A DNA stretch of 64,000 bases from Blattamonas nauphoetae. Taxonomy: Eukaryota; Preaxostyla; Oxymonadida. Under the pieces are notes generated by a model, which had not been told where the DNA came from, ran no database searches, and was given only the letters and a program-made list of their open reading frames with translations. Position 1 is the first letter of the stretch. Every line of letters starts with the position of its first letter. The DNA is taken from positions 62,001-126,000 of the forward strand of contig JARBJD010000150.1 of NCBI GenBank assembly GCA_033064195.1. Direction: 5' to 3'. The translations under genes were made by a program, and so were the position numbers. Shown here piece after piece: positions 12,398 to 61,436 of this stretch.

Positions 12398-14451
12398 TTA
12401 TTCATCCATCGCGACAGCAATCGTTCCTCCAACCATCTGCGGATCGGACACAACTTCAACTGATTCAATCTCAACTCCATCGTCCACTCTGAACAAGCTC
12501 ACCGCAAATCGGAAGGGAACAGGGATGTTCGTGAAGAAGACTGGCGCTGTCTTTCCATCTTGCGACAGTTTCAATGTTCGCTTTCCTTCTCGTCCATCTG
12601 CCTCCAACACCACTCGCTGTCCCTTTCTTCCTCCCAAACATGCTGAACCTTTGTTTGTCTGTTTGCTGTTCTGTCTGGCATATCGACCAGCTGGAGACAA
12701 TTCCCATCCTGTTCCTCCCATCTCATATGTAAAATTTGTTTTGAGAATCTTGTTGCTCAGATGGACGAGAAGATCCCAACAACAAATGAGCTGCTCGGTC
12801 CATTTCTGATTGTGAGTGACAGACGAGCCACAACTGCCCCGAACTCGAACGAGACAAGCGTAGCAAAAGAAGGTTGTGATTTTGAGAAAACATTTCCAGA
12901 CACTGTCCAATGAGCTCTGTCGAACAGTTCGATCGCTGCTGCTCCCATTTGAGATCGGATGACAATTGCTTGTCTTGCTGCAGACGATGCAAGAGGTCCA
13001 TTTGAACGAACTCCACTCGAATGAGGTGCTGGCTGAAGAGGAGGTTGGGTCTGGTTCGATCTCGATGCGGCCAACTCTCTTTCCAACCGACTAACTTTCT
13101 CCTTCTCTACCATCAAGTCTTCTTTCAGGCTTTTCAGTTCTGTTTCGAATTGTTCAATCTTATGATGATCTTGCTTGCGGGCGTTCTTCAAGTTCTTGTT
13201 TTCGGAATGGAGTTCTTTGTCGTCGTCATCTTTCAGTCTCCAAAGTGCTGAGGGAGTGTTCACGAGGCAACGAAACACTCCAAACGAACACAACTGACAA
13301 CTCGTCACTCGAGTTTCTGGGTTCTGAACAGAACGAAGGAAAATCACAAAGAATGAAGAAAACGAAGAAAGATGGAGAAAGAAACAAACAGGATCCAACA
13401 TTCGCATCAGAAGCGCGCGTTCTTCTCCTCCACAACTCGTCCCAATCATCGATACGCGGAAAGACGAGATCTCTTGACCCAGTTTCAGAAGAGATTTGCT
13501 CTTGAAAGGCGGTTCTCCAAACAGAAGCCAGTGAAGAACAATCCCCAACGCCCACACATCCGATGAGCACGTCGCCCTTCCTGTGTCCGATTCCATTCGT
13601 TCCGGCGACACATACAGTTGAGACATCACCGAACGCGTGCTGCTCACATCTTCCGATTCCGCCGCTCCTAAATCACCTGAATCAACATAATAAGATAAAA
13701 ACGAAGAAATTAATTATGAATAAAAGATGAAATCAAACTTTGATGATGGTAATAAATGAAACAGCTTCAAAGTAAGCTCCAAAATGTCAAAAGAAGAACA
13801 AGTGACAGAAGATCGAGAAAGACAAACACAGTTTGAAGTGACCCCTATCAAAAAGAAGAATGTTCTCCATCTTCACATCTCCATGTGCTGTCGCCCCACT
13901 TTCGTGGTTGTGCATCAAGTTCAGCGCGGACGAAACATCCATCATCACTCGATAAACAACCTCAAATCACAAGAAACACAAACACAACAATAATCAATCC
14001 CAGAACAACATCCAACCCAAAGAACAACAAAATCAACAACAATCAACAACAACTAACATTTCAAAAACAAACTTCGCGAGCAACAAGAACTCCACGCGAT
14101 CGGTGGTCTCGAACGATATCTGCAAGCGACTGTCCCCCAAGTTCCATCACAATCACTCTCGAGTTTCCCATCGAGGCCAATTCTTTCAGTCCAACAATTC
14201 CTGGATGCGCGAACTTTCGAAGTCGATTAACTTCACGATCGATTCGTTCCCTGTCCTTCAGTGCGATGCACTGTATTATCTTTCCCGCATAATGTTCCTG
14301 AGTTGAATCCTCAATCATTTCCACAACACTCCCGAAGCCACCAGAGCTGATGATTCTCACGAATGAATCTGCACAAAACGAAAAACATGAATTATCAATA
14401 AAGGCTAGAAAGAAACATATATCCATCGGGGACTTCGACTACATCCATCAT
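12398..14451 (-). pseudogene. Kinase/coiled-coil/SPRY-like family, copy A (decaying)
   Basis: Same five-exon plan as copy B. On the minus strand: 14451-14421, 14368-14073, 13960-13828, 13676-13390 and 13323-12398. It encodes a kinase domain (SGGFGSVVEM, AGKIIQC, HGDVKMEN, DLGAAESEDVSS, YVSPERM), a coiled coil, and the C-terminal SPRY-like domain. Two defects stand out. The first intron begins AT (ATATGT) where the other copies begin GT. In the last exon one base is missing near 12761 relative to the paralogues, which puts a stop inside the SPRY-like domain. The downstream SPRY sequence continues in the next frame to the family's usual C-terminus. I call it a young pseudogene. Assembly error at the single-base site cannot be excluded. 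It diverges from copy B across an 88-bp gap. Confidence 0.75.
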
Positions 14452-14539
14452 TTCTACTATTCAGTTCGATGATAAAAAGTTGGAATTTGATCTCCCCATG
14501 ACCACATCTCTCGGTCGCGGAAAGAACAGAACTGTCCAA
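14452..14539. promoter_or_regulatory. 88-bp divergent intergenic region between kinase copies A and B
   Basis: The inferred start codons of copies A (minus, 14451) and B (plus, 14540) face away from each other across only 88 bp. Any promoter for both must lie here or overlap the coding starts. No known core element was recognised. The sequence differs from the conserved upstream box shared by copies C and D. Confidence 0.4.
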
Positions 14540-16631
14540 ATGACAGATGTGATTGAAGTTCCAGATCGATGTATGTTCCATTTTCACATCTTGAAGTCGA
14601 CTTTTGTTTTGCTGTGTTCCAGATATGTTCGTTCGTGAGATCCACGCTGGAAGCTTCGGAAGTGTTGTGGAATTGATTGAAAATTCGACTCAGGAACATT
14701 ACGCGGGAAAGATGATTCCGTGTGTGACAGCAAAAGATACAGAACGAATCGATCGTGAAGTTAATCGACTTCTTCAGTTCGCGCATCCAGGAATTGTTGG
14801 ACTTAAAGAATTAGCATCGATGGGGAACATGAGAGTGATTGTGATGGAACTTGGAGTGCAGTCGCTTGCAGATATTGTTCGGGACCACACATCGCGTGGA
14901 GTTCTTGTGGCTCGCGAAGTTTGTTCTGAATTCCTTGTTTTCTTGTTGATTGTTGTTGATTTTGTTGTTCTATTGGTTGGATGTTGTTCATGTATTGATT
15001 ATTGTTGTGTTTGTGTTTCTTGTGATTTCAGATTGTTTATCGAGTGATGGTGGATATTTCATCAGCGCTCCAAGTGATGCACAACGAGTCAAGAGGAGCG
15101 ACAGCACATGGAGATGTGAAGATGGAGAATATTCTTCAGTTTGATGGAGGACACTTCAAATTGTGTTTGTCTTTTTATACTTTTTCTCCGTTCTTTTTTT
15201 TTCCAATTTCACTCCATCCTTCAACGTTCATTCTTTTTTTTCTTCTTTTCCTTCCTTCTTTTGTTTATTTCTTAATGTTTATTTTTGTGTATTCTGCATG
15301 TTTCTGGATTTCAGGTGATTTGGGGGCGGCGGAATCGGAAGATGTGAGCAGCACGAGTAAGATGATGTCTCAACTGTATGTGTCACCGGAACGAATGGAA
15401 TCGGAAACAGGAAGGGCGACGTGCTCATCGGATGTGTGGGCGTTGGGGATTGTTCTTCACTGGCTTCTGTTTGGGGAAGCGCCTTTCAAGAGTCAGAATG
15501 CAGCTCGATTGTTTCGTGAGATTGGGTCATTCCAAGTTTCGATGATCGGGACGAGTTGTGGAAGTGAAGAACGAGCGCTTCTGATGCGAATGTTGGATCC
15601 TGTTTGTTTCCTCTCTACTTTTCTTCATTTTCTTCTTTTTTTGACTTTTCTTGTTTTCTAATCAGAATCCAGGAACTCGAGTCACAAGTAGTCAATTATG
15701 TTCATTTGGAGTGTTTCGTTGCCTTGTGAACACTCCCTCAGCCGTTTGGAAACTAAAAGATGACGACGAAAATAAATCCTTGGACCAACAAAAGAAACAG
15801 CTCGAAATCTTCATCAATCTTGACAGAGATTTAAGATCAGAAAGGAGTGCCCACAAAAAGACAGCGAATTCCCTTCGATCGGAGCAAGCCCGAGTTCGGA
15901 GATTGGAGGAAGAATTAATGGCCGAGAAGGAGAAAGTCGCTCGGTTAGAAAGAGAGTTGGCCGAATCGAGGCTGAACCAGACCAGACCGCCTCTTCCATC
16001 TGCACCTCCAACGCCGTCTCGACAACGCGGATCACCTCCGCCCCAACGAAGACAAGGAACTGTCATCCGATCTCAAATTGGAGCAGCAGCGATCGAACTG
16101 TTCGACCAAAATGAATGGACAGTGTCTGGAAATGTCTTCTCACTCTTTCCGATCTATAGACCTGGTTCGCTCATCTCGTTCGAGTTTGGGAAAGTTGTGG
16201 CTCGTCTGTCGCTCACAATCAGAAAAGGACCAAACCATGATTTCATTGTTGGGATCATCTCGTCCAGTCTGAGCAAAGAGGCTCTCACCCAAACCTTCAC
16301 GAGTCTGAAGGGAGGAGCAGGATGGCAATTGTTTCAAGAACAGAGAAGTGCCATACAGAACAGGAAAATGAAGAAGAAAGGATCAGCATGTTTGGCAGGA
16401 AGAAAGGGTCAACGAGTGGTGGTTGAGGCAGATGGACGAGAAGGAAAGCGAAAGTTGAAACTGTCGCAAGATGGAGAAACACAACCAACCTTCTTCGTAA
16501 ACATCCCAGTTCCCTTCCGATTCTGTGTGTTCCTCTGGAACCAGAACGATGCGGTTGAGATCGAGTCAGTTGAAGTTGTGGACGAGCCGCAGATTGTTGG
16601 AGGATCAGTTCCCGTTATGATGGATGAATAA
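14540..16631 (+). CDS. Non-RD protein kinase with coiled coil and SPRY-like domain, copy B
   Basis: An intact 570-residue member of the window's repeated kinase family. Exons are 14540-14570, 14623-14918, 15032-15164, 15315-15601 and 15666-16631; introns are 52, 113, 150 and 64 nt. The N-terminal kinase (about residues 10-255) has a glycine loop (AGSFGSVVEL), the AGKMI lysine and the helix-C glutamate (DREVNRL). The catalytic loop is HGDVKMEN, with Gly replacing Arg of HRD; the Mg loop is DLG instead of DFG, and SPE replaces APE. The essential Asp, Lys and Asn are all present, so activity is plausible. A charged coiled coil (about 270-355) and a Pro/Arg linker follow. The C-terminal beta-rich region (WTVSGNVF, FEFGKVVARLSLTI, VVVEADGREGKRKLKLSQDG, FFVNIPVPFRF) resembles SPRY/B30.2. 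It likely detects or docks a ligand; function is unknown. Confidence 0.8.
14919..15031 (+). other. Conserved second intron of the kinase family (copy B)
   Basis: A 113-nt intron rich in TTG/GTT. The equivalent introns in copy A (13961-14072), C (27335-27447) and D (60944-61056) are 112-113 nt and align base for base over most of their length, including GATTGTTGTTGATTTTG. The other introns of these genes have similar lengths but have largely drifted in sequence. In A, C and D the 3' site reads TTTGAG, a rare acceptor with G at -3; copy B has TTTCAG. Confidence 0.75.
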
Positions 16632-16751
16632 ACCAGAACGACCACTTCACCCTTTCATCATTGTTTTCTATCTTCATTTTTGATTCACGCACACGAATAT
16701 TTGTGAACCAATCTTTTTCACACTCAATCCCATAAAAAATAACACAGTCTC

Positions 16752-18527
16752 ATGAGGTGTGTTCTCCTCTTATTCTCGATTCTGTCCAGATTGATCACTT
16801 TTGTATTGCTTGTGGTTCTCCTTTTGGGAGCATTCTACTTTTTCAATCTTCTCAAACAAGACGACAAGCCTTCAGAAGGCACTCGAAAGACGACTGAGAA
16901 ACATGATTCGTCTGAAACCGAAATCACTCCAAATACCGTTTCGGAAATCGTCTCTGCACCAATCTCATCTCCACCAGAAACATCGACGGAAGAAGGAGAA
17001 GCGAGTGAAATCGAATCGACAACAGAAAATCCTCCCTCATCCGATCCTCCTTCTGTTCCAGTTCCTCCTTCACCCCTCACTGCCCCAGAACCTCCCCCTC
17101 CAACAATTGTGTCTTCCCCTCCTCAACCACCACAGCCAACACCAGATGAAAGTGAGAAAGTCGCGAAACGAGCGCAGCAGAGAGTGTTCATCCTCGCTGA
17201 GATCCTCTCAACAGAAAAGACGTATGTCGCCCAGCTGCAAGCCTTCCACGACGTGTTTTACGAACCATGCCGAAGTCGAAGAGAGCAACTGGGTTTGAGT
17301 GAGATGGACATCAAATCGATCTTCAGCCAACTGAAAGTGATTCTGTCGACGAACATTGAGCTTCTGAAGCAGCTGCAGGTGTCGATTGAGGAGAATGGGG
17401 GTGAAGGGGTTGGGAAGGAGATTGCGAGCATGTCGGCGTATCTGCGCTGCTACACACCGTACATCAACAACTACACGAACAGCCAGAACACGATTGCGGA
17501 GCTTCAGAAGAACAACAAGGCGTTCCGGAAGTTCCTGAAGGAGTGTTCGCAGAATCCAGCGAGTCTGAACTTCCCGATCGAGTCGTTCTTGATCCTTCCT
17601 GTGCAGCGTCTTCCGCGATACAAGATGCTGATTGAGCAGCTGCTGAAGTACACAGAAGAGAACCACCAGGAATACTTGCAGATCAAGTCAGCACTGACGA
17701 CGATCTCGAATCTGGCGGAACAAGCGAACAATCGCTGCTTCGAGAATCAAGAACGGATGGGAGTGATTGATTTCCTGAACTCGATCAACGAAGGGCTGCG
17801 GGAGCAGAAGAAGGATGTGTCGACGATCGACGGGTCGGCGATTGTGACACCGCTTCGACGCCTGCTTCAGAAACTCCGAGTCATCACCTTCACTCGCACT
17901 CGACAGACGGACATTGCGATTCCTGCGGGGACGGACGAGGCAGATGCTCCTTTTGAGCGAATCCGAGCATTGCTGAAGGAGAGTTCGGGCGAATCAATGA
18001 AAGAGCTGAAGGCTCTCTACATCTTCAACGACTCGATCGCCGTCACGTCCCTGCTCGACAGACATTCCCGCAAATCGATTTCCAAAATTTCAGAAGCTTT
18101 TCCAGCCGTTACCTCGCAGAAATTGATAGAACTTTGCCCAACGTATTTCGTTTCGTCGCTCTCGATCTCCCCTCCTTACGACGGGCAAAGTGTTGATCTT
18201 TCTTTGTCTTCCCGTGTTTCTAAACCACCTCCAGATCACGTCCTGACCCAAGATTCGCCCAAAACGATCGTGTCCTACGTTCTGTTTTCGTTCACCGCCC
18301 ACATTGACCCATTGTTCTCCACGCAGACACCAACGCTCTCGACTGATCCCCCACTTAAATCAACAGGGTTCCGGCAGAGCACCACAACTTATTCTGACTG
18401 GACCGAGCTCGTCCCAAAATCATACACTTTTCTTGTCAAAGCGACGGTCGAGGAAGCATTTGAACTCGCTAAAGTGTTCGAGAATGCTCAAAATTCGCTG
18501 AAAGAATTGGCACGAAAGTCCTCCTGA
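16752..18527 (+). CDS. Membrane-anchored RhoGEF (DH domain plus PH-like region)
   Basis: A 591-residue single-exon protein, a guanine nucleotide exchange factor for Rho-family GTPases. It starts with a hydrophobic signal anchor (about residues 3-32). A Pro/Glu/Ser-rich linker (35-135) follows. The DH domain covers about 143-335 and shows the typical opening ILAEILSTEKTYVAQL and the conserved FLILPVQRLPRYKMLIEQLL helix. The region after 370 is beta-rich with basic segments and probably corresponds to a PH domain with insertions, though this is less certain. Membrane anchoring at the N-terminus is unusual for DH-PH proteins. It lies 120 bp downstream of kinase copy B on the same strand; part of its DH domain is duplicated downstream of copy C. 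Confidence 0.82.
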   Translation: MRCVLLLFSILSRLITFVLLVVLLLGAFYFFNLLKQDDKPSEGTRKTTEKHDSSETEITPNTVSEIVSAPISSPPETSTEEGEASEIESTTENPPSSDPPSVPVPPSPLTAPEPPPPTIVSSPPQPPQPTPDESEKVAKRAQQRVFILAEILSTEKTYVAQLQAFHDVFYEPCRSRREQLGLSEMDIKSIFSQLKVILSTNIELLKQLQVSIEENGGEGVGKEIASMSAYLRCYTPYINNYTNSQNTIAELQKNNKAFRKFLKECSQNPASLNFPIESFLILPVQRLPRYKMLIEQLLKYTEENHQEYLQIKSALTTISNLAEQANNRCFENQERMGVIDFLNSINEGLREQKKDVSTIDGSAIVTPLRRLLQKLRVITFTRTRQTDIAIPAGTDEADAPFERIRALLKESSGESMKELKALYIFNDSIAVTSLLDRHSRKSISKISEAFPAVTSQKLIELCPTYFVSSLSISPPYDGQSVDLSLSSRVSKPPPDHVLTQDSPKTIVSYVLFSFTAHIDPLFSTQTPTLSTDPPLKSTGFRQSTTTYSDWTELVPKSYTFLVKATVEEAFELAKVFENAQNSLKELARKSS

Positions 18528-18755
18528 CTTTTTCGTTGGGTTGTTTTTCTTCATTCTTTTTCACTTCAACTATGCAAATGGTCTCATCGAAATTGAGACA
18601 ATTCCATCCAGTCAAGGTTTTCTTTTCAGTGGAAATGTTCTCAATCATCTTTGTGGACCGTTCATTTATCGACCATATAATGGGCATGATCTTATTCTCA
18701 CAAATCATCAAGTTCCCCACCTCCGGTACCGGCAGATCCAAAGCGTTCCAGCATC

Positions 18756-21700
18756 ATGATATCTCTCCTCGTGTCATTATTAGTCTCATTCAGCTCGTTG
18801 AGACATTTGTCCCTCGAAAGTCAAATTCGAAATCACGCTACTCGTTCAACACACACTGATATCCAGCGGAACGTTCAGCTTCCATCTACCACTTTCGTTT
18901 CGTTCAATTTCCCAGTCGTGAATGCCGATCTCGTCCTCAGAGGAGATATCAGCACAACCATCACCATCAGCAATGATTCTGCCGAATCGAACTCCCAAAA
19001 TTGGAAGCCACAATATAACCCTCTCGGAATTGATTCGTATCAGTCGTGTTTCATTTGCACAAACACCTCTCTCGCCCTCAACACGATCAGCTTCGCCCTC
19101 GCTGACAACTCTGAGCAAGAAGCGCACAAAACTTCGCATTGCTCGCTCATCCATTCATCTCACGTCACTGCCACGAACTGTAATTTCATCATTTCAGTCG
19201 GGGCTTCTCCTTTTATAGTGTTCGAAACGACAACCACACTCGAAGACCAGTCTTCGTCACTAACACTTGTCTCTTCCTCAATCAGCAATTCTGAGGGCGT
19301 CATTGGATCCTTTAGCGACTTTGCCCCGTCAAACTTCGAAGGGACCCACTTTACGCAAGTTATCTCGTCGTCGGAATTCAGATCAAGTTCTCTTCTCCAC
19401 GGCGACGGAATCGCCCTCCGACAGCCTCACCTCACTTTTCCAGCATCCTCATTGTCTGTCTCATCCACCATCTCGTCCACATCATTCCGTAATATGTCGT
19501 CTCCGGCGACCCAGAATCGAAGACCAAACTTCCATTTTTCTCAAAATGCAGTCGGTTGCGACCTCCATTCAACAGCTAATCATCTCTCCGGATGCCCTTT
19601 CCGTGGATTGGACAAGGGAGGGTCGTTTTCTTGTCGGAATACCACATTCACAGCGCTGATGGAACAGGAACCAACACCAATCTCAAATGCTGCTTACGAG
19701 AAGGCCGGTGAAACATTTGAGACATCTAAAGACGCTCCACATGTCGCCATTAGTTCAAGCGACTACGAATCAATCACCGTCATGAACTGTGTGTTCAAGG
19801 GATATTCTGGGTACAGCACACGCGCACTTGCCATCCTCATCCAGCAATACGATAACAGTGTTATCATCTCCGACTGTCAATTCATAAATCTTGAATCGAA
19901 TGCAGGCGAATCAACAGAATTCCTTTCTGGTGCTGTCCTCATCAGACCTGAACACGAAGAACATGCGTATTCTTTCAAAGTCCAAATCTCAACGTGCACG
20001 TTTGAGAGCTGTTACTGCATCGGTGGGCCAGGAGCCATGTTTCTCGGCTCACCGAGAAACAGAATGACGTTTATTGTGGGTTGCACGATCAACAATTGTT
20101 CGTCATTCAAACACGGCGGAGCAGTCAAAATCGACATGAAAGGTTCATTGAACCTGATCAACACATCATTCTCACGCTCTGATACGTGGACAAACCATCA
20201 CGGAGGCTCGGCGCTCCAAGTCTCCAAATGTGACTATCTTCTCGTGCGTGACTGTTTGTTCGATTCAAACCGTCAAGATGTCGATTCCACTGTCTATGTT
20301 GAAAACGTAACACAGGCTCGCTTCTCATCTTGCATTTTCTCAGACAATGTGGGTACTACAGACTATTCGTCTGGAGGGAGAAGCCATGGCGCTTTCGTGG
20401 CGAAAGCTGCCATCCGACTTGAAATGACGGGGTGTTCGTTCACAAACAATCAAGGACAATTTTCAGCTGCACTGTATCTCGATCGATATGTGGAAAGTGT
20501 CGTCATGGATGATACTTCATTTTGGAACAATTTTGCCCATGGAGGTCCGTATGTGCTGAATCTTGAGGCAGAAGAGATGACAAAATTGATCAACGCTTCT
20601 TCTGTGAGGAATTGTTGGGCAAAGAACCATTACAGGGTCACAGATTATGAAGAGCTGGACAAACTCTTCCCTGAGCAATTCGAAGAAATTCAAGTCAACG
20701 AACTCTTCGTGAGTAGTAGCGGAACAGAAACGGAAATATGTTCGAAAGAAGCACAGTGTTACCAGCTGACGGATGCCCTGACCTGTCGAAATGATCAAAA
20801 AACAAAAATCTCTCTTTCTGGCGCGATTTATACAGAAAATCCGATCATTCTAGATGGATCAATTGAACTTGCAGGACTCGGAACTGAATTTGATCCCCCT
20901 GCCACATCATTTCAAAATCAGGCATTCCAACTCGCGGAATCGTCGTCAGTGAAAATCTACGCGACGAATGTGTTTGTTGGTTCTGCCCCATTTGTCACGC
21001 AGGACACAGCCAGCGATCTCGTCTTGTCTGAGATTCTCGTCAATCCATCTCTCAACGATGGAATTATGAGTTATCTCTTGCACCAATCAGCCGGCACATC
21101 GTTGGTCACAATGTCCTCGTTCACAGGCTACATTTCGCCATCCCTCATCAGAATCATTGGAGTCGCGAAAGCCACCATTTCCGATGTTCTCTTCACCAAT
21201 GTCGTAGCTAGTACTCAGTATGATGACCCTAATGTGAATGGCATTTGCATCACGTGTGACACATCTGGAGACGTATCTATTCTTCGCTGTGGGTTTGAAT
21301 CGACTAAGGTGCAGGAAGATTACAGACCTGTCTATCTTGATGGAAAAGAAAATGGGAATGTTGAAGTTCAATGGTGTCGATTCGCTGATACAAGTGATAC
21401 TCACTACATACCATATAATGATCTCGTGGCAGTTAATTTTGAACCTGGGAAGTTGAAGATAGATTATTCGACAATTGAAATGCTCCCGAAAGACAAGCAG
21501 TTTGATATTGATGGAGTGACAATGAAAGGCCTCCCTCCTCCCTTCCTGATCTACGAGTACAATCCTGAAGATCAATCTACACTCAACTGGAGAGACAGGA
21601 AACCACAAAAGGCAGAAACACTCAACGACACAGGCCTTCAACCGCTGTTGAACTCACTCAACAACAACATCCACACAACGCTCCTCATCGAATGTGAAAT

Positions 21701-26954: not shown

Positions 26955-29086
26955 ATGACGGAAGTATTCGAAGTTCCAGATGGATGTATGTTCCATTTTC
27001 ACATCCCACAGTGGCATATTGTTTTTTTGTCTGTTCAGATTCCTTTGTGAGAACAATCAGCTCCGGTGGTTTCGGGAGTGTTGTTGAAATGATGGAGAAT
27101 TCGACTCAGATACATTATGCGGGAAAGATGATTCCGTGCATGACAGCGAAAGACAAGGAAAGAATAGATCGTGAAGTTAATCGACTTCGAAAGTTCGCAC
27201 ATCCGGGAATTGTTGGACTGAAAGAATTAGCATCGATGGGGAACATGAAAGTGATTGTGATGGAACTTGGAGTACAGTCGCTTGCAGATATCGTTCGGGA
27301 CCACAGATTGCGTGGAGTTCTTGTGGCTCGCGAAGTTTGTTTTTGAAATGTTGTTTTCTCGTTGATTGTTGTTGATTTTGCTGTTCTTTGGGTTGGATGT
27401 TGTTCTGGGATTGATTATTGTTGTGTTTGTGCTTCTTGTGATTTGAGGTTGTTTATCGAGTGATGATGGATGTTTCGTCCGCGCTGAACTTGATGCACAA
27501 CCACGAAAGTGGGGCGACAGCACATGGAGATGTGAAGATGGAGAACATTCTTCTTTTCCCTGGAGGTCACTTCAAATTATGTTTGTCTTTCTCGATCTTC
27601 TTTCACTTCTAACTTTTTCCTTCTTTCATCTTTTTGTGATCCGTTCTTTCCTTTTCATTTTTCATTTATTCCTTCTTTATTTTATTTTCTGATGTTTCTC
27701 TTTGTGTTTGTTGTTCTATTTGGGAGTTCAGGTGATTTAGGAGCGGCGGAATCGGAAGATGTGAGTAGCACGCGTTCGGTGATGTCTCAACTGTATGTGT
27801 CGCCGGAACGAATGGAATCGGAAACAGGAAGGGCGACGTGCTCATCGGATGTGTGGGCGTTGGGGATTGTTCTTCACTGGCTTCTGTTTGGAGAACCGCC
27901 TTTCAAGAGTCAGAATGCAGCTCGATTGTTTCGTGAGATTGGGTCATTCCAAGTTTCGATGATTGGGACGGGTTGTGGAGGAGAAGAACGAGCGCTTCTG
28001 ATGCGAATGTTGGATCCTGTTTGTTTCCTCTCTTCTTTCTTCATTTTCTTCATTCTTTTTGTTTTTTCTTGCCTTCTGAATCAGAACCCCGAAACTCGAG
28101 TGACGACTTGTCAATTGTGTTCGTTTGGAGTGTTTTGTTGCCTTGTGAACACTCCCTCTGGAGTTTGGAAGCTGAAGGACGCCGACGAAAATGAACTCCA
28201 TTCAGAAAACGTGAACTTGAAGAACGAACTCCACTCCAAAGAAATTCAGTGGAAGATAGAACTGGAATTGGAAACAAGCGCCCGCAAGCGAGCTGAAGAG
28301 AAGAACCCAAACATGGAAGCAGAACTTGATACAGAACAGAAAGAAATTCACAGGTTGGAAAAGGAGTTGAAAGAAGAGAAGGAGAAGAATGTTCGTTTGG
28401 AACGAGAATTGGAAGAATCGAGATCGAACCAGACCCAACCTCCTCTTCAGCCAGCACCTCATTCGAGTGGAGTTCGTTCAAATGGACCTCTCGCATCGTC
28501 TGCAGCAAGACAAGGAACTGTCATCCGATCTCAAATTGGAGCAGCAGCGATCGAACGATTTGACCTGACGAAATGGACCGTGTCTGGAAATGTCTTCACA
28601 AAATCACAACGTTCTAATGATTCGCTTGTGTCGTTCGAGTTTGGGGCAGAAGTGGCTCGTCTGTCACTCACAATCGGACGCACACCGATCGGCACTTTCG
28701 CAGTTGGGATAATCTCGTCCTGTCTGAGCAACCAGGCTATCACTGAATACGTTCTCTCTCTAAAGGGAGGAGCTGGATGGAGCTTGAATCCAAATTATCG
28801 ATTTGCCAGACAGAACGGGAAAGAGACAAACTTCGGATCAGCATGTTTGGGTGGAAGAGGGAGACAGCGTGTGGTGTTGGAGGCAGATGGACGAGAAGGA
28901 ATTCGAACATTGAAACTGTCGCAAGATGGAGAGACGCAGCCAGTCTTCTTCACGAACATCCCAGTTCCCTTCCGATTCGCTGTGTTCATCCGGGCGAATG
29001 GCGATGCAGTTGAGATTGAGTCAGTTGAAGTTGTGTCCTCGCCGCAGATGGTTGGAGGAACGATTGCTGTCGCGATGGATGAATAA
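26955..29086 (+). CDS. Non-RD protein kinase with coiled coil and SPRY-like domain, copy C
   Basis: An intact 582-residue paralogue of copy B. Exons are 26955-26985, 27039-27334, 27448-27580, 27732-28018 and 28085-29086; introns are 53, 113, 151 and 66 nt. The last intron is a multiple of three and open, so the unspliced frame also runs through it. Kinase landmarks are SGGFGSVVEM, AGKMI, REVNRL, HGDVKMEN, DLGAAESED and SPERM. The coiled coil (about 285-370) is longer than in copy B. The linker (HSSGVRSNGPLASSAARQ) is shared with copies A and D. The SPRY-like domain ends VVSSPQMVGGTIAVAMDE. Exon lengths 31, 296, 133 and 287 equal those of B exactly. The second-intron acceptor reads GAG. Confidence 0.8.
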
Positions 29087-29279
29087 GGCAGAACACACCA
29101 CTTCACACTTTCCCTTTTCTGTTATCTTTTCATTATTCATTTCACACACACAAAAACAGTCGAATGGTATTTCTGTTCTGAAATGTGAAATGGAAGAGAG
29201 GGAGGACTGGTCGAAGAACGGATCGAATCACACTCTGTGTTTGGTCAGGAACAGCGTTCGTGAAGTCGAGTGACCCAAT

Positions 29280-29797
29280 CATCGATCTGATTCGTTCTTT
29301 AGTCTCGAAACAGCGGTTGTTCGCTTGTTCCGCCAGATTCGAGATCGTCGTCAGAGCTGACTTGATCTGCGAGTATTCCTGGTGGTCCTCTTCTGTGTTC
29401 TTCAGCAGCTGCTCAATCAGCATCTTGTATCGCGGAAGACGCTGCACAGGAAGGATCAAGAACGACTCGATCGGGAAGTTCAGACTCGCTGGATTCTGCG
29501 AACACTCCATCAGAAACTTCCGGAACGCCTTGTTGTTCTTCTGCAGATCCGCAATCGTGTTCTGGCTGTTCGTGTAGTTGTTGATGTACGGTGTGTAGCA
29601 GCGCAGATACGCCGACATGCTCGCAATCTCCTTCCCAACCCCTTCACCCCCATTCTCCTCAATCGACACCTGCAGCTGCTTCAGAAGCTCAATGTTCGTC
29701 GACAGAATCACTTTCAGTTGGCTGAAGATCGATTTGATGTCCATCTCACTCAAACCCAGTTGCTCTCTTCGACTTCGGCATGGTTCGTAAAACACGT
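29280..29797 (-). pseudogene. Inverted RhoGEF DH-domain fragment
   Basis: A minus-strand copy of part of the RhoGEF gene at 16752-18527. It covers the DH domain from FYEPCRSRREQLGLSEMD to LAEQANNRCFE. At the nucleotide level it is nearly identical, with the first ~300 nt showing no difference by eye. The N-terminal anchor, Pro-rich linker and PH-like part are missing. Similarity fades beyond the DH end near 29280 and stops abruptly at 29797. An open frame persists, but no start or membrane anchor is evident. It lies just downstream of kinase copy C, mirroring the kinase B-RhoGEF pair in opposite orientation, and so marks a recent segmental duplication with inversion. Confidence 0.85.
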
Positions 29798-29847
29798 CCT
29801 GAATAGTTTGTTAAGGGTCTGATCACTATTCTTCACTCGCAAACAAC

Positions 29848-32265: not shown

Positions 32266-32563
32266 TCACACATCCGCCTCGCACGTCGCCTTTCCTGTTT
32301 CCAAGTCCATCCGCTCCGGCGACACGTACAGCTGCGACATCGCCGAACGAGTTGCTGGCACATCTTCTGATTCTGCTGCTCCAAACGGCCTTCGACGAAG
32401 AAGAGAGGAGAAGGGAGAGAGTGAGAGAAAGAAGAGACAAACAGAGCTTCGTGCATCCATCTGTAGCTATCAAGATGTTCTCCATGATGGTGTCGCCATA
32501 TGATGTCCTTCTGTTTTCGTGGTTGTGCATCAAGTCCAGAGCGGACGTAATATCCTCCATCAC
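32266..32563 (-). pseudogene. Kinase-family remnant F (exons 3-4 only)
   Basis: Minus-strand relic of the window's kinase/SPRY family. It retains an exon-3-like piece (EDITSALDLMHNHENR, then GDTIMENIL where the others have GDVKMENIL) and an exon-4-like piece (GAAESEDVPATRSAMSQLYV, SPERMDLETGKATCEADV). Immediately after ADV the codon TGA stands where the paralogues have TGG (Trp of DVWALG). The rest of the kinase, the coiled coil and the SPRY-like domain are absent. More divergent than the other copies, so probably the oldest. Confidence 0.75.
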
Positions 32564-52777: not shown

Positions 52778-53837
52778 TTAATTGAAAATGGAGATATCAA
52801 AGAAGGTGGAGTCATTTACTCTAAAATGTCGGTCCAATTTTGTGAGCTCAGCCACTTCAGCGTCCGCGAGTTGAAAGTCGAAAATTGCAAAATTCTCCTT
52901 GATTCTATTCACATGTACGGACTTTGGAATAATGCTCACATTCTTGTATCTTTGAGTGAGGAATCTGAGAACAATTTGTGCTGCCGATTTGTTGTATTTC
53001 TTTCCGAGATTGACGATCACTTCCTGTTCCGTGATTTGGGGTGTGTTCTTGTGAACACCCACACGTGCGAGCGGTGAATATGCGGTCAGATGGATGTTGT
53101 GTTGTGCACAGAATTGAGTGAGTTCTTCTTGTTGAAGATACGGATGGAGTTCGACCTGATTTGTGACTGGATGGATTCGCGCGTAGTTCAGCAGATCATT
53201 CAATAATGCAACGGTGTAGTTGCTCACACCAATATTCTTGACAAGTCCTGCATCCACCAATTGTTCCATTGCCTTCCAAGTGTCCGAGAGAGGAACACGA
53301 TCGTAGATCGTTTTCCCATCTTGACCTTTCGGGATCAGATCACCACCATGCTGGAATGCAAGAGGCCAATGAACGAGGTATAAGTCAAGATATGTAACTT
53401 GTAGATTGGCTAGTGTGAGCTTACACGCTGGGAGGACGTTTTCTGGTCTGTGATCAGTGTTCCATAGCTGAAAATTGAGGAAAATGTATGAAGAAGGGAG
53501 AATAACAATGAAGAACCTTTGAAGTCAGCCATAGTTCTTCTCGTTTCACCAATCCTTCGTCAAAGCATTCTTTGAGAGCTGGAGGCGATGAACGAGAAGA
53601 AGGAGAAACCTTGACCGATTTCTTTTTCATTCCCATAGATATGAGCAAAATCAAAGTGGCGATAACCAATTTTGATGGCTTCTTTGACGGCTCTGAGAAA
53701 GACATGACACGAAGAAAGGAGAGTGTGAGTTCGGAGTGTCCATACTGTCCTACCTCACCAGGAGGAGCTTCCCAGGTACCTAAGCCTAGACTGGGTATTT
53801 TTGCACCATTATAGAGTGTACAGAGTGGGACGGACAT
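52778..53837 (-). CDS. Aldo-keto reductase
   Basis: A 303-residue NADPH-dependent aldo-keto reductase. Minus-strand exons are 53837-53759, 53690-53610, 53578-53517 and 53467-52778; introns are 68, 31 and 49 nt. The TIM-barrel signatures are all present: LYNGAKIPSLGLGTW, GYRHFDFAHIYGNEKEIGQA (Asp and Tyr of the catalytic tetrad), LWLTSK (Lys), YLDLYLVHWP (His) and AGLVKNIGVSNY. The cofactor-binding end reads SIIPKSVHVNRIKENFAIFD. Length is typical (about 300-320). The first two introns bring the catalytic segment into frame. The first uses donor GTGAGG and acceptor AGAG. Physiological substrate cannot be read from sequence; sugar, aldehyde or ketone reduction is typical. Confidence 0.87.
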
Positions 53838-53981
53838 GTCGATTCAGTTGAAATCAAATGCAGGGTTGATCTAGTATTGTGAGCGAGAATGGATTTGAAA
53901 ACCGTAGAAAAAAGCAGAAGACTGTGAAACACAAATGATGAGAGAAAAGAATGATGAAAGAATGAAGTGGTGTGTTCTGCT

Positions 53982-54545
53982 TCATTCATCCATCTCGACA
54001 GCAATCGTTCCCCCAACCATCTGCGGTTCGTCCCAAACAACAACTGGCTCAATCTCAACTGCATCATTGTCCTGGACGATATCCACAACGAATCGGAAGG
54101 GAACTGGGATGTTCGTGAAGAAGACTGGCTGTGTCTCTCCATCTTGCGACAGTTTCAGTGTTCGCTTTCCTTCTCGTCCATCTGCCTCCATCACCACTCG
54201 CTGTCCCTCTCTTCCTCCCAAACATGCTGAACCTTTGTTTGTCTGTTTGCTGTTCTGTCTGGCATATCGAACATTTGGATGCAAGTTCCATCCTGCTCCT
54301 CCCTTCAAACTGGCAAAGTCTGCTGTGAGAGTCCGGATGCTCAGAATGGACGAGATGATCCCAACTGCGAATGTGTACGTCGGTCCTGTTCTGATTGTGA
54401 GTGACAGACGAGCCACTTCTGCCCCAAATTCGAACGAGACCAGCGAAGCCCAGATATTCTGTGATTTTGATAAGATATTTCCACACACTGTCCATCTCCA
54501 TTTGTCGAACAGTTCGATGGCAGCTGCTCCAATTTGAGATCGTCT
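53982..54545 (-). pseudogene. SPRY-like domain-only fragment of the kinase family, copy E
   Basis: Minus-strand C-terminal piece of the kinase/SPRY family with no kinase or coiled coil. It starts near RSQIGAAAIELFDKWRWTVC and runs through FEFGAEVARLSLTI, GSACLGGREGQRVVMEADGR and FFTNIPVPFRFVVD to GGTIAVEMDE. The stop is TGA instead of TAA, and the family's downstream GCAGAACACACCACTTCA block follows directly. The domain itself is intact, without internal stops. Upstream sequence (GC-rich, to about 54850) does not match the kinase part. It may be a 5'-truncated duplicate. A functional SPRY-only protein is possible but no clear start or promoter is seen. Confidence 0.75.
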
Positions 54546-55640
54546 TCCTGTTCTGGCCGCCCGCCTTCACTCCTTCCTCTGTTGTGAATGATCGATTGGA
54601 ACACCATCCGTTTCTGTCTTACCTGGCTCGAAGTGGTCATGCACACATTTCTGGGGATGTTCACGCAGTTTGTGTGGAGAAGTTCCAGAACTTGTTCCCG
54701 CTCTAGTCGGCACCGTTCCTGGCGCAGAATTTGAAATTCGAGGAAGTGAAGTTGGGATCGAGGTCGGGTTTGAGAGAGCCGCCTTGGCTGTTCCCCACGC
54801 TCGGAAAACCGCCGATTCCTGTTCTGATTGGACAGACAAATAAGGAGTTCAAGTCGAAGTTGAAGAAACGAACACAATCGAACTCGATTTCGTTTTCTCC
54901 GTTTCCCTACTCCACTCAGAACAAGACTCAGAATTCAGCACCGAAACCGGAACTGCCACCGAACCACTCGCTTCATCTGGACACGCACCTTCCGCGAATC
55001 GAACTGGAGACGATCGCATCGGCTCAACGAAACCAGAAACCACCGCCTTCTCGCATCTCGCGACGATTCAATGCAATTCCTGTGCCATTCTTTGCTCAAC
55101 AAATGAAAATGATGAACGAGACGAACGATGACACAAAGACGTCGGATGATTCGCTGATGAGCCAAAGCGAGTCGAGTTCATTCACACTGGATATCGAAGC
55201 AGCTCGAACATATTCGCAATCGGAGCACGCCTTCTCGCAGAACAGCGCCGACCACTCGATCTTTTCGATTCTTTTCCACATTTCATTCAACGAACACCTC
55301 AATATCCACATCACTTCCTATTTTTTTGCTCATTTCTTACTTCCTGACATTAAAGCTTCTTTCAATGAGAGACCCTTCAGCACATTTGTCCGGAATGTTG
55401 TCGTCTAGTTCACGAGCATATGTCCCTCCCAACTCTCCGTCTTCTCAACACCGCCAGCATTTCATTATCCACTGCCCAGCCCGAAGTATGCATTCCATAT
55501 GATCGTTTCACTTCTCTTTCCTGATATTCAAGTTCACCTTCCCTGATATCCGAGCCCACCCTCCACTATGTCCCGTCTCAAAGGTCAGTTCCATCTCCAA
55601 TCAACAACCTCGACGGACGGTTGTCACTCACTCATCGAAT
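54546..55640. other. Uncertain coding region
   Basis: Several overlapping frames of 80-225 codons on both strands. The longest, plus 54731-55408, is Ser/Asn-rich. An alternative plus frame near 54710-54840 (GTVPGAEFEIRGSEVGIEVG, then FERAALAVP) looks protein-like but ends soon. Frames shift repeatedly without clear introns. I read it as decayed coding sequence, family unknown. Confidence 0.35.
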
Positions 55641-57060
55641 CCGCTCACAACTGAGAATTTCTTCTTGCAGAAAAGAGGAAGAATTGAAACAGAACGTCCA
55701 AAAAGCAAAAACATTGAGACATTGTGAGAACGACCATGAAAGGCGACGACGCGAAGGAAACAAAAGGGAAGGGGATGAAGACGACTAAGTTGAGGTTGAT
55801 GAGGACATCGAAGGAAAATATGAACAGGCAGAAAATGAGAAAGACGGAACACGAAGCGTGGGAGAGAATGAAAACGTTGAAGAAACCGAACCTGAACCAA
55901 CTGGCGAAATGGAAGAAGATGAAGAAAACGACAATACTGAAGACGAGTAGGAAGAGGCAGTTGAAGATGAGGGTGAACAAGACGATGGAGATGCCGATCC
56001 CAACCAACAGGTAATCGAGAACTCAGAACGCGAACGCAGAGATGATGAGGAACAGTATGAAGAAATGGACTAAGCTGCCGGATCTGAAGAGAATGCTGAT
56101 GCGAAGAAAACGAGAATGATGAAGCTGTCGAAAGCGAACAACTCGATGATGAAGATCCTGACGCTGCCTGTCCTGAAAATGAACAAGCTGAATCGAAACA
56201 TGAAGATATGCAGGAGAAAGATGTTGTAAAAGCTGAAGACGAGGACGATGACGAAGAAGGCAAAGTTAAATCGAAGAAATCAAAAGTGAAGTCAAAACGC
56301 ACTTGTTTGGTGCACCAGCGCAAAAAAAGAATCAAACGATATAGAAAACGAGATAGAAAAAACTGAACTAAACATTGAAGATGATGAGGATTTTGCAGAA
56401 GCGGCGGATGAACAAGAAGAATCCGATGATCAATTTGAAGACGATGAACAGGCGGAAGGGACAGAATTAGAAGCCGAAAAAGAAGAAAACAGCAAACACT
56501 CAGTCAACTCAAGGGAGAGTTTAAAATCAAGCAAATTGTCCCGGAGTTCGAAATAAAGTCGGTCGTCAAAACAATCAAGCTCCAAATTTCTGAAATCACA
56601 CTCTTCGGAAGAAAAAGAGGAAGTAGTGGAAGAAAAAAAATCTGAAGAACAAGATTGACAGGAGGAAGAGTTTGAAGACCAACTGGAATATGAAGGAGAG
56701 AAAGGAGACAACATCGATCCTCAGCCGGACAAAGAACCAGAGCATCAATCGGAAACTAAGGACAATGACGACGAAATTGTGAAAAAAAGAGCATTTTATG
56801 GAGACAGGAGCTGGAAAGGAAGGATCGGTGCGTGAAACAGACATCGAATCAAAGTCTGAAGCCGCAAAGAAAGAATCAGGTGAAAAAGACGAAAACGAAC
56901 AAGAAAACAACAAAGAAGTTGGGTTGAAGAAGATGACGAAGAAAAAGTGGAAGAAGGAGAAACGTCACCGAATCCGCATTTTAAGTACGAAGATGAAGAC
57001 ATGTCCGAGTGACTGCTATTCACCCCACATTCACGAACACCGTTCAAACAGGACTGAATT
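55641..57060 (+). pseudogene. Decayed acidic (Glu/Asp/Lys-rich) low-complexity gene region
   Basis: On the plus strand, purine-rich DNA encodes long Glu/Asp runs (EETEPEPTGEMEEDEENDNT, then GEQDDGDADPNQQ; later EDEQAEGTELEAEKEENSKH). It is interrupted by several stops and frame changes without obvious splice sites. The minus-strand Ser/Leu/Phe-rich frames over the same span are shadows. It most likely derives from a highly acidic protein or the charged part of a larger one. It leads directly into the decayed receptor at 57070. Confidence 0.45.
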
Positions 57061-57069
57061 TGAATGTTG

Positions 57070-58480
57070 AAGTGGAATGGGAGCTTGCTTGAGCCGAAAC
57101 TGCACGTCGCCTCGGCTGATCTGAGTGGAGGCGAGATGGGGATGATTGTTGTGGACTCTACCTTTCTCGAGTTGAAGAACGTGAATGTGCACATCATCTC
57201 AGTCTTGCAGTCGTTTGTTCTGATTCATGGAACGAACTCTTAGATTGTGCTTCACGAAGGATTGTTTGCTGGGCCATCCACTGGAATGGCGATGAACGAA
57301 GATTCAGACAGTGTTTGCAGCTGGTCGTCGAGAGCTCTCCAACTCATCAACTGCGACCCGCACATCACGAACACTCGGTTGTTCCAGCTGAATCAAGGAG
57401 CGATCAACGTGAAGAATGGTTCTTTTGAAATCCGAACATCGTCGTTCGATTCGAACTGTGCCACGTCTTCCTCGTTTCCGTCTTCTCGTCGCAACATGCA
57501 CTGCTCGAACGAAGGGATTGTCACGATTGGGAGTCTGAGTGGAAGAGATGGGTCGAACGGATTGCCGCTGTTGGCGTCGAAGGAAGGGTGTGTGATGAAG
57601 GGGGATGCAGCCCACCCCGACTCGTCTCTGTTCGTTCCTCAGCTGGACAAGGAACAGTCAAAGAGTGTGGTTGACACAGCCACTCAACAGTACAAAGTGA
57701 GCATCGTTGGATCTCGACTGATTCCGTGTGGGTTGTTCTTGGAAGTGTTTGAACACGAATCGGAAAGCAATGCGGATGGCAAGTCAGTTGAATTCAATCT
57801 GAACGACACTTCGTCTGAGACTGAAGTGACATTTATCATCGAACAAGAAGAGATCGCCGCATTGGATCAGAAACACGAACTCCGATGCCGACTGAAGTTT
57901 GGTCAGAATCTGCGAACGACAGACTGGTTCACATTCTCGGCTGCCCACATCGACGATCCTGAGCCAACGAAACCAAAATTCAGCCAAACTCCGCTCGGAA
58001 AGGCACTTTCATGGATCCTTCCAGTTGTCGGCAGTGTTGTGCTGCTGCTCATCCTCCTCCTCATCATCTTGCTCGTGTGGCGACGAAAGATAGAGGAATG
58101 CATTGAAGTCACTCAGAACGAACCAGATTGTCTGTCAGGTTTGATTGGTTCAGGACAGATCGTGGCTGATGAAGGGATTCTCGATGGAAGGATTTCCAGA
58201 TGAGCAAGAAAATCGAGAAGAGAAAGAGGAAGAAATAGAAAACGAGGTGATGGAGAGGCCACACAAAAGGAAGAGGAGAAAGAAGAGGAGAAAGAAAAAG
58301 AACAACCGCTCAACAAACATCACGTCAAGAACGCTTCCGTCAGCAGCCCCCGTCCATTTGCTCCTTCACGTTGTACTCTCTCGTCCACAAACACAGCCCC
58401 GTTCATCTCAACCGCGTGTACTTCGACGAACGGGTTGTGATCGAGAAAAGGAAACAACAGTGGCAGAAGGCGACGTCGAA
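57070..58480 (+). pseudogene. Decayed paralogue of the giant beta-helix/pseudokinase receptor
   Basis: Corresponds to the C-terminal third of the receptor at 18756-25793. KVSIVGSRLIPCGLFLEVFE matches EISLVGSMLVPCDLKFEVFY there. The ELRCRLKFGQNLRTTDWFTF block and a TM helix (ILPVVGSVVLLLILLLIILL with a following VWRRK) also occur in the same order. An in-frame TAG near 57243 interrupts the extracellular part. The cytosolic part after 58200 shifts frame into Lys/Arg/Glu-rich sequence with only a weak echo of the kinase-like region. No signal peptide or long beta-helix region is present. I judge it a truncated pseudogene. Confidence 0.7.
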
Positions 58481-59359
58481 AGGGATGGACCGGAACACCT
58501 TTTTTCCGGCTGAATCAATCGTTTTAAGAGCCGTGAATGACGTTTTCATCGCCTCAGAGTCAGATTTCTTCCTTCGTGGGTGAGATCAACACTGATTTCA
58601 CGTTAATGCAACAATTTCAAAAAATTTGAGTTCACCAACACCTTCTTTGTTTTTCACGTCACTTACTTTCTTTTTAGTTGTTCTCTAGTGAAAAATTAGG
58701 ACAGAAAAGTCAGATCTGCGTGTAGACCTGGAGATCTGCGCCTAGACCGATCTGCAGATCTGCGTCTAGACTTTTTCGGATCTGAGTCTAGACCTACCCC
58801 CTCGCAACATTCGCTGTGTGGATCGTCTCCTGCGTCGAACTCTTCTTCATTTTCGTCGCAACTGAAACCATCGCCTTTCGCTTCTCCTAAAAACGAGAGC
58901 GTAAATTCGATATCACTGAGCGTGGCGTCTGGTGCCGGATCGCCTCTTTCGTCGCCACACGCTCGACTGGAAGTGCCGTCGTTCTGCCCGCGAAAGATCC
59001 AGGTGGACGGAAAGCAGAAAGGTGTGGGCAGCGGTGTGAATTCGGGGGGCTTTTGGGAAGGGAGTGGGGAAGGGTCGGGAAACAAGTGCTGCAGCTCCAC
59101 AATAATTGATTTGACGCTGTTTGTTGGGATGAGCTGGTTTCTTGGTTTGAGGTTGACGAAAAGGATCAATTCACGTCTTTTGTTTGACTTGTCGTTATTA
59201 TGATTGTCTTTTCTGCATTGCATTCTGTTCTGTCCTGGTCATTCGACATTTCTTGATTTCTGTTTGGACTCGTTTTCAAAAAGGGCAGAACAATCACACA
59301 ACAATGCGAATAATGAAGAGAGAACAGAAAGAGGAAAGTGTGAAATGGTGTGTTCTGTG
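58481..59359. other. Interval with degenerate short repeat and uncertain frames
   Basis: About 880 nt. It contains the GATCTG/TAGAC repeat at 58714-58795. Open frames exist on both strands (58696-59223 minus; about 58800-59203 plus), neither with a domain. The plus frame (SGAGSPLSSPHARLEVPSFC, IIDLTLFVGMSWFLGLRL) and the minus frame are equally plausible shadows of each other. The last ~90 nt are the conserved 3' flank of kinase copy D. Confidence 0.4.
58714..58795. repeat. Degenerate tandem repeat of GATCTGcGtcTAGAC
   Basis: Four imperfect copies of a 15-bp unit, consensus GATCTGCGTCTAGAC, with variable spacers of 2-10 nt. Variants are GCGTGTAGAC, GCGCCTAGAC, GCGTCTAGAC and GAGTCTAGAC after GATCT. 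The unit contains short palindromes (AGATCT and CTAG cores). It lies in non-coding or decayed sequence. No function is suggested. Confidence 0.7.
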
Positions 59360-61436
59360 TTATTCATCGATCGGGACAGGATTCATTCCTCCAACCATCT
59401 GCGGCGAGGACACAACTTCGGCTGACTGAATCTCAACTGCATCGTGTCCTCTCCACATGTACACAGCGAATCGGAAGGGAACTGGGATGTTCGTGAAGAA
59501 GACTGGCTGTGTCTCTCCATCTTGCGACAGTTTCAATGTTCGCTTTCCTTCTCGTCCATCTGCCTCCAACACCACACGCTGTCCCTCTCTTCCTCCCAAA
59601 CATGCTGATTGGCGGTTTGCCCTTTTGCTGTTCTGTTTGGCATCTCGACTATTTGGATACAAATCCCATCCTGCCCCTCCCGTCAGATAGGTAAAGGTAT
59701 CTGTGAGAGCTTTGTTGCTCAGATGTGACGAGATGATCCCAACAATGAAAGAGTCGTTCGGTCCTTTTCTGATTGTGAGTGACATCCGAGCCACTTCTGC
59801 CCCAAACTCGAACGACACAAGCGAAACACCATCACCCCTTCCTTTCGTGAAGAGATTTCCAGACACTTTCCATCTTCTTTGTTTGAATAGTTCGATCACT
59901 ACTGCTCCAATTTGAGATCGTCCGACAGTTCCATGTCTTGCTGCAGACGATGCGAGAGGTCCATTTGAACGGACTCCACTTGAATGAGGTGATGACTGAA
60001 GAGGAGGTTGGGTCTGGTTCGATTTCGATTCGGCCAATTCTCTTTCCAGACGAATTATCCTCTCTTGATCGAGCTTGCGGGCGTTCTTTTCCATCTCGAG
60101 TTCGTTCTTCAATTTCTTCATTTCCGAACGGAGTTCTATTTCAGCCTTCTTCAGTTTCTCCTTTTCCAAATGGAGTCCCTGTTCAGATGTAATCCATTTC
60201 TCTTCCTTGTCCAAGTGCTCCTTGTCTTCGACGTCTTTCAGTCTCCAAAGTGCTGACGGAGTGTTCACAAGGCAACGAAACACTCCAAATGAACACAACT
60301 GACGACTCGTCACTCGAGTCTCGGGGTTCTGAACAGAAAACAAGAAAAACACAAATAATGAAAAAAGAAAAAGGTGAGGAAAAAAACAAACTGGATCCAA
60401 CATTCGCATCAGAAGCGCACGTTCTTCTCCTCCACAATCTGACCCAATCTGAGAAACTCTGAACGACGAGATCTCTTGACCCAGTTTCAGGAGCGATTTG
60501 CTCTTGAAAGGCGGTTCTCCAAACAGAAGCCAGTGAAGAACAATCCCCAACGCCCACACATCCGATGAGCACGTCGCCCTTCCTGTTTCCGATTCCATTC
60601 GTTCCGGCGACACATACAGTTGAGACATCACCGAACGCGTGCTGCTCACATCGTCCGATTCCGCCGCCCCCAAATCACCTGAATGAAAATAGAACAAGAA
60701 ATATAAGCAACAGGTGAACGAATGGAAGAAAGTGCGAAGTAAGAAGCAATCAGAAAATAGAAGTTAAAAATAAATGGAGGAAAAAAAAGAAGTGAAAGGA
60801 GAGAGACAAACCAATTTGTAGTGTCCCCAAGGGAACAGAAGAATGTTCTCCATCTTCACATCTCCATGTGCTGTTGCCCCACTTGAGTCGTTGTGCATCA
60901 AGTTCAGCGCGGACGAAACATCCACCATCACTCGATAAACAACCTCAAATCACAAGAAACACAAACACAACAATAATCAATACATGAACAATATCCGACC
61001 CAAAAAACAACAAAATCAACAACAATCAGCAAGAAAACAACATTTCAAAAACAAACTTCGCGAGCAACAAGAACTCCACGCGATGTGTGGTCCCGAACGA
61101 TATCTGCAAGCGATTGTTCTCCAAGTTCCATCACAATCACTTTCATGTTCCCCATCAAGGTGAATTCTTTCAGTTTCACAATTCCTGGATGCGCAAACTG
61201 AAGAAGTCGATTAACTTCACGATCGATTCGTTCCTTGTCTTTTGCTGCCATGCATGGAATCATCTTTCCAGCATAATGTATTTGTGTCGAATTCTCAATC
61301 ATTTCCACAACACTTCCGAAGCTTCCAGAACTGATAGTTCGGACGAACGAATCTGAACAAACACAAAAACAATATTCCACTTTGGGTTGTGAAAATGGAA
61401 CACACATCCATCGGGTACTTCGAATACTTCCGTCAT
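59360..61436 (-). CDS. Non-RD protein kinase with coiled coil and SPRY-like domain, copy D (possible frameshift)
   Basis: Fourth near-complete member. Minus-strand exons are 61436-61406, 61352-61057, 60943-60812, 60678-60392 and 60328-59360. Kinase landmarks are SGSFGSVVEM, AGKMI, REVNRLLQF, DLGAAESDDVSS and SPERM. The coiled coil is long (EEKWITSEQGLHLEKEKLKK). The SPRY-like domain ends VVSSPQMVGGMNPVPIDE. Exon 3 is 132 nt here but 133 in copies A, B and C: the junction reads AAATTG|GTTTGTC, where B has AAATTGT|GTTTGTC. As drawn, this single missing base puts exon 4 out of frame just before DLG. Either the gene is newly inactivated, a nearby alternative splice is used, or the base is a sequence error. 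Everything else is intact. Confidence 0.7.

Follow-up and report, generated by a model that had tools for sequence, protein, structure and literature searches.

Kinases Joined to a Predicted SPRY Fold in the Oxymonad Blattamonas nauphoetae: Candidate Cytosolic Sensors with Diversified Binding Loops

Blattamonas nauphoetae is a gut protist without mitochondrion. In a stretch of 64,000 nucleotides of its genome (contig JARBJD010000150.1, C58:62001-126000 in our numbering, hereafter called the window), we found several copies of a gene that joins a protein kinase, through a charged linker, to a C-terminal domain of predicted SPRY fold. We demonstrated that the family to which these copies belong is largely expanded in the genome, that its kinase part is constrained, that its 3′ part is shared at the DNA level with other front ends, and that its variability is concentrated in loops of the SPRY domain. 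The reading that we favor, with moderate confidence and by analogy with the TRIM proteins, is that these genes would encode kinases that act as sensors in the cytosol and whose binding loops have diversified.

Domain Architecture and Predicted Fold

The N-terminal part of the two intact genes of the window (copies B and C) matches the Pfam family Pkinase with an E-value of 3.9e-38 (131.8 bits, for a gathering score of 31.7), and the VAIK lysine, the glutamate of helix αC, the aspartate of the HxD motif, the asparagine, and the aspartate of the DxG motif are all kept. By sequence, the closest solved kinases are of the PLK2 and CaMK/CDPK types. A preliminary description of the window had pointed out that the catalytic residues are kept and that HRD is replaced by HGD and DFG by DLG, and these features extend to the family. 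Indeed, among the 38 loci having all four exons of this kinase (type I), 32 had three usable kinase exons and served for the kinase counts (30 of those 32 for the paired counts); both motifs are found in 32/32, and so are Lys30, Glu46, Asp127, Asn132, and Asp145 (numbering of a 239-residue concatenate, of which 88 positions are invariant). The catalytic-loop lysine is kept in 31 of these 32 loci, and the second glycine of the glycine loop and the glutamate of the APE position are each altered in one. Since the residue preceding the catalytic aspartate is never an arginine, these kinases are of the non-RD type, which would not rely on activation-loop phosphorylation in the usual manner, and with these five residues kept in every locus counted, they are likely active. 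Among 47 relatives with a fused kinase, the motif was located in 39 and reads HGD in 34 and YGD in 5; a second kinase type combines YGD with DFG (e.g., P0007, P0012, and P0095).

The C-terminal domain escapes sequence searches. The Pfam scan of B and C gave no SPRY match at E-values up to 0.5, and so nothing above the gathering score of PF00622; this profile has 11 matches in the genome, none of them at the 150 places listed for the domain; and phmmer against the solved structures returned chance matches only (best E 0.33). Its identity was settled by structure prediction, a check that had been set beforehand. The model of the copy C domain adopts the SPRY fold, in agreement with the resemblance to SPRY/B30.2 initially put forward, and its structural matches include GUSTAVUS and SPSB bound to peptides of VASA and PAR-4; 2 of the 50 matches listed by Foldseek are glycosidases and not SPRY.

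Between these two domains, charged residues and glutamine abound in the linker (median fraction 0.53), which is probably a coiled coil. Neither a transmembrane-like stretch nor a hydrophobic N-terminus was seen in B and C, which suggests an intracellular location for their products.

Expansion, Module Sharing, and Loop Variability

Searches in the Blattamonas assembly (88,311,006 bases, 837 contigs) gave at least 150 matches for the C-terminal domain (150 scored of 487 candidates, all with E ≤ 2.0e-38), at least 151 for the kinase C-lobe exon (150 scored of 409 candidates), and at least 150 for the catalytic-loop exon (150 scored of 261 candidates). The seven-residue SPRY-domain motif EADGREG has 187 exact sites in the genome versus 4 for its reversed control, which excludes a chance origin; EADGRDG has 75 sites and HGDVKxENI 118, versus none in both controls. 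Pfam-based annotation misses a domain that has at least 150 matches and 262 motif sites in this genome. The 150 listed domain matches are spread over 77 contigs and form clusters on some of them, i.e., 13 on C3 (0.39 expected), 11 on C58 (0.29), and 8 on C501 (0.53), and 42 of the 73 within-contig gaps between listed matches are shorter than 20 kb. We fetched the best 60 of these 150 loci. Five of them have internal stops in the SPRY domain, and a splice-site screen flags 11 of the 38 loci with a complete type I kinase, some solely from in-frame insertions, which is not a pseudogene count. The family is thus expanded and clustered, with some copies broken (A and D in the window have lost their frame), as first proposed. 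The relatives listed by three protein searches come exclusively from Blattamonas (120 listed of 138; 106/106 at E ≤ 1e-30; 44/44 at E ≤ 10), in searches where candidates had to share five-residue words and be of bounded length and which are no direct test of other oxymonads. Head-to-tail SPRY arrays of about 750-bp units were also observed. One of them (L077, G000:C273:23200-28800) contains seven motif sites in nearly identical units, no listed frame holding more than one whole SPRY domain, and may be a coding fragment that was amplified in the manner of a satellite; the other (G000:C516:14950-17200) is seen from its four motif sites.

The expansion itself being clear, its unit is not the single kinase–SPRY fusion family that had been supposed, but the 3′ linker/SPRY module, which occurs with at least two types of kinase and also in a larger family whose members mostly lack a kinase. 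We rejected the single-family reading because 22 of the 60 fetched loci do not have all four type I kinase exons upstream of the SPRY domain, as the other 38 do. The front end of these 22 loci is the second kinase type (type II, in four of them), of the helical type, or a partial kinase, or else it was not recognized. When the front ends of the 120 relatives listed are grouped by single-linkage clustering, 47 join the kinases and 67 join P0022, a helical-front protein, in a cluster that linker similarity may have helped to form. One of these 67, P0048, also has a kinase (HKD), possibly through a merged gene model. P0022 presents a 115-residue helix ahead of its SPRY domain, and its fold search named no helical front end, the 50 matches listed being only SPRY-containing entries.

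The module is shared down to the DNA level. The type II locus L023 and the type I locus L030 are 91% identical along 871 nt, a stretch that begins some 130 nt ahead of the SPRY domain and ends beyond the stop. Comparing four type II with three type I loci, the kinase region is unmatched except for one 107-nt patch (74%); between four helical-type and two type I loci, the matches (76–81%) begin close to the start of the SPRY domain or after it. The distances in the kinase are correlated with those in the SPRY domain (Mantel r 0.62), so this exchange has not erased the linkage between the two parts. Among the 184 proteins collected, 112 carry a kinase belonging to this set, of which 65 have the SPRY class of the window (one also matches a third class), 28 a second SPRY-like class, 3 the third class alone, and 16 no tail class that we found. 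Profile comparison relates class 1 to class 2 and to class 3 (probabilities 96.0 and 94.4) but does not relate class 2 to class 3 (2.5); neither of the latter two has a Pfam SPRY match. Outside the window, the second tail (P0132, P0134, and P0168) amounts to 35 copies in 24 proteins, some of which have more than one, the third (P0124, P0171, and P0181) is also joined to the kinase set, and P0047 contains two SPRY copies, each behind its own copy of another segment.

We then mapped the entropy of 30 genes onto the SPRY model (except for loop 1, the loop names come from our own strand count). Four loops, b2-b3, b4-b5, b6-b7, and b11-b12, represent 25 of the 188 positions and hold 16 of the 30 most variable ones (P 2.4e-9). 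Mean entropy is 2.23 bits in these loops, 0.83 in the rest of the SPRY domain, and 0.44 in the kinase. The codon analyses of the SPRY domain used 55 of the 60 fetched loci, those with internal stops being left out. For 15 independent pairs, including the frame-broken copy D (L017), pN/pS (the ratio of nonsynonymous to synonymous differences per site) increases from 0.36 in the kinase to 0.77 in the rest of the SPRY domain and 1.29 in the loops. The tree-based loop ratio is 1.15, or 1.33 when transitions are given a weight of 2, and of 20 sister pairs of the SPRY tree, the 16 whose pS is below 0.3 give 1.18 in the loops versus 0.77 elsewhere. Three loops of the SPRY core are strongly constrained (omega 0.06–0.39). 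Altogether, diversifying selection on the loops is suggested, not proven.

Copies in the Window and Their Neighbors

The six copies first described, A to F, are all in place (Table 1). Ungapped repeat families join A, D, E, and F on one side and B and C on the other, with DNA identities of 74–97%, and both groups are linked to each other at the protein level. Spliced by hand, the gene has five exons and four short introns, mostly GTATGT or GTTTGT...AG. A ciliate-type code was considered and is unneeded, B and C being open under the standard code with introns. The C model corresponds letter for letter to the annotated B. nauphoetae protein P0001 (582 aa), and B was not found among the proteins collected. 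The start codons of A and B are head to head, 89 bases apart. As publicly modelled, A (P0054, 438 aa) and D (P0019, 528 aa) are both without the HGD exon, and such models without catalytic-loop exon would conceal pseudogenes in annotation-based counts. Upstream of E, the 2.9 kb searched contain no match to the kinase exons of the kinase–SPRY family.

Table 1. Family copies in the window and neighboring genes (positions are those of the window; SPRY refers to the predicted fold).
Feature	Position	Strand	Remarks
Copy A, near-complete, broken	12398..14451	-	first intron donor AT where GT is expected; frame break plus stop in the C-terminal (SPRY) domain
Copy B, intact kinase-linker-SPRY gene	14540..16631	+	570 aa, splice model without stops
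Copy B exons	14540-14570, 14623-14918, 15032-15164, 15315-15601, 15666-16631	+	splice model
RhoGEF-domain gene adjoining copy B	16752-18527	+	Pfam E 4.1e-44
Open frame, 2345 aa	18756-25793	+	one transmembrane-like stretch, near residue 2020; C-terminal kinase C-lobe match
Copy C, intact gene	26955..29086	+	582 aa, splice model without stops
Copy C exons	26955-26985, 27039-27334, 27448-27580, 27732-28018, 28085-29086	+	splice model
Copy C catalytic-loop exon	27448..27580	+	HGD replacing HRD
Copy C SPRY-fold domain	28502..29083	+	194 aa, piece used for the structure model
RhoGEF-domain gene adjoining copy C	29142-29795	-	Pfam E 3.7e-37
Copy F, kinase remnant	32266..32563	-	catalytic-loop and C-lobe exons; YGD-T, stop
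Open frame, 2504 aa	43250-50764	+	no Pfam match at E ≤ 0.01
Copy E, lone SPRY domain	53982..54545	-	194 aa open
Copy D, near-complete	59360..61436	-	frame lost at the third intron

RhoGEF-domain genes adjoin both intact copies, and P0045, a collected kinase–SPRY protein, has a RhoGEF match too, perhaps through a merged gene model. From its sequence, the product of the 2345-aa open frame may be receptor-kinase-like. The closeness to surface receptors that the preliminary description had noted may apply to this neighbor in the window, but the 150 listed matches of the SPRY domain are spread over 77 contigs.

A TRIM-Like Layout and the Competing Explanations

In the mechanism that we propose, the product of an intact gene would be a non-RD kinase, located in the cytosol and probably active, that continues into a charged, probable coiled-coil linker and a SPRY-fold domain whose core would serve as a fixed scaffold and whose loops would form a variable binding surface. 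Because of this variable surface, we propose that the paralogues bind different protein ligands. Ligand binding, or the clustering of coiled-coil oligomers on the ligand, would bring the kinase domains together, and this proximity would start the phosphorylation of a common downstream target. Such a ligand-driven clustering is suggested because the succession of effector, probable coiled coil, and SPRY domain with variable loops resembles the TRIM layout. New specificities would emerge by tandem duplication, with drift and selection on the loops, and also by movement of the 3′ linker–SPRY module among front ends (the two kinase types and the helical family). Proteins of this kind could take part in the sensing of microbes, viruses, or other non-self.

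Most parts of this layout are known from other systems. TRIM proteins such as the fish finTRIMs and TRIM5α also have an N-terminal effector, a coiled coil (probable in Blattamonas), and a C-terminal SPRY/B30.2 domain, and they share with the Blattamonas family a large species-specific expansion and the variation in the domain loops (PMC2657112). Their variability hotspot, loop 1 between strands 2 and 3, has the position of the Blattamonas loop b2-b3, and the finTRIM domain is apparently common to another receptor family, the NLRs, via exon shuffling, as the Blattamonas module is to several front ends (PMC2657112). On the other hand, the Pfam scan of B and C detects neither a RING nor a B-box and shows a kinase in that place, their SPRY domain lies below Pfam detection, and the site-level positive selection reported for finTRIMs (PMC2657112) is not significant in the Blattamonas SPRY domain. 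The SPRYSEC proteins of plant-parasitic nematodes likewise form an expanded family with a SPRY scaffold and hypervariable loops; however, they are secreted parasite effectors (PMC5071358), whereas the Blattamonas kinases are probably intracellular. The fusion of a kinase to SPRY is not new either. Indeed, one of the proteins behind the first description of SPRY is SplA, a Dictyostelium kinase that has both sequences in one polypeptide (PMC5071358), and which is described as a dual-specificity kinase closely related to a TKL-group kinase, with a role in spore differentiation (PMC1420674). For the Blattamonas kinases, the nearest solved kinases are of the PLK2/CaMK type, and 112 kinase-bearing proteins were collected.

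Several observations weigh against sensors with diversified loops. Fourteen of the 30 most variable SPRY positions are outside the four loops, and segment 73-89 (a helix and the b5-b6 loop), also outside them, has a ratio of 1.14. No site out of the 165 tested passes the 5% false-discovery cut for positive selection. In the loops, pN exceeds pS in 11 of the 15 pairs and is below it in 4 (one-sided sign test, about 0.06). Because the loop pS is raised too (0.374 versus 0.230), gene conversion or multiple hits and saturation may distort the loop ratio. Finally, only 10 proteins out of 43 show a significant heptad periodicity in their linker, and the coiled coil is therefore weakly supported in the kinase type.

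The main rival, which we judge possible and less probable than sensors, is an endogenous wiring in which the SPRY domains would guide each kinase to its own target inside the cell, a substrate or a cytoskeletal site, the expansion reflecting a complex cell. The precedent is found in Giardia, where 198 of 278 kinases are Nek kinases, 133 of these 198 having ankyrin repeats; rapid turnover is described in one subfamily, four Neks have a cytoskeletal location, and cytoskeletal targeting and scaffolding have been proposed (PMC3218828). As in the Blattamonas family, kinases of one metamonad lineage have expanded and turned over, and the binding module at their C-terminus is mobile (PMC3218828). Moreover, SPRY domains often recruit endogenous peptides, as in the VASA and PAR-4 complexes among our fold matches, and RhoGEF genes stand next to B and C. 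However, most Giardia Neks, many with ankyrin repeats, are catalytically inactive (PMC3218828), whereas those of Blattamonas have kept the catalytic residues and are joined to SPRY, and no ankyrin repeat matches B or C in the Pfam scan. The variability of the loops, with its relaxed or diversifying ratios, also exceeds the obvious need of substrate sorting.

A mostly neutral duplication, in which unequal exchange and conversion spread a 3′ module that recombines easily, unconstrained loops drift, and many copies are dead or dying, seems unlikely to us. It would account for the broken copies A and D, for the internal stops in the fetched SPRY domains, for SPRY pieces without recognized front end, for the tandem SPRY fragments on C273, and for the lack of a significant positive site, but it fits poorly with the constraint on the kinase and with three SPRY core loops that are strongly constrained while the other loops vary. 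Least probable is a recognition of self or partner, of the allorecognition or mating type, with loops diversified between strains by balancing selection, since B and C are not obvious surface proteins, even though variable loops, clustering, and turnover would be compatible with it.

Coming back to the kinase sensors, their individual parts are known, i.e., the kinase–SPRY fusion (SplA), the variable SPRY loops (TRIM5α, finTRIM, and SPRYSEC), and the kinase expansion (Giardia). What is new is their combination, their scale, a SPRY class invisible to Pfam, and the sharing of a module between kinase and non-kinase families. Our literature search, which covered titles and the starts of abstracts with few subscription papers, retrieved no named kinase–SPRY family of oxymonads, and a term search in the main text of the Blattamonas genome paper does not return the word SPRY (PMC10703272).

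More tentatively, Blattamonas may have its own innate-recognition system, in which a combinatorial SPRY repertoire with diversified loops, swapped at the DNA level between non-RD kinases and helical-front proteins, would serve the cytosolic sensing of bacteria or viruses, in convergence with the B30.2 domains of fish TRIM and NLR proteins.

Animals and plants have well-described families of diversified recognition proteins; to our knowledge, such families are hardly described in anaerobic protists. With a TRIM-like layout in which a kinase takes the place of the front part, the kinase–SPRY family is a good candidate for an unrecognized sensing system, and the kinase–linker–SPRY repertoire offers a concrete and testable candidate for the way in which a gut protist may tell apart its microbial surroundings or viruses.

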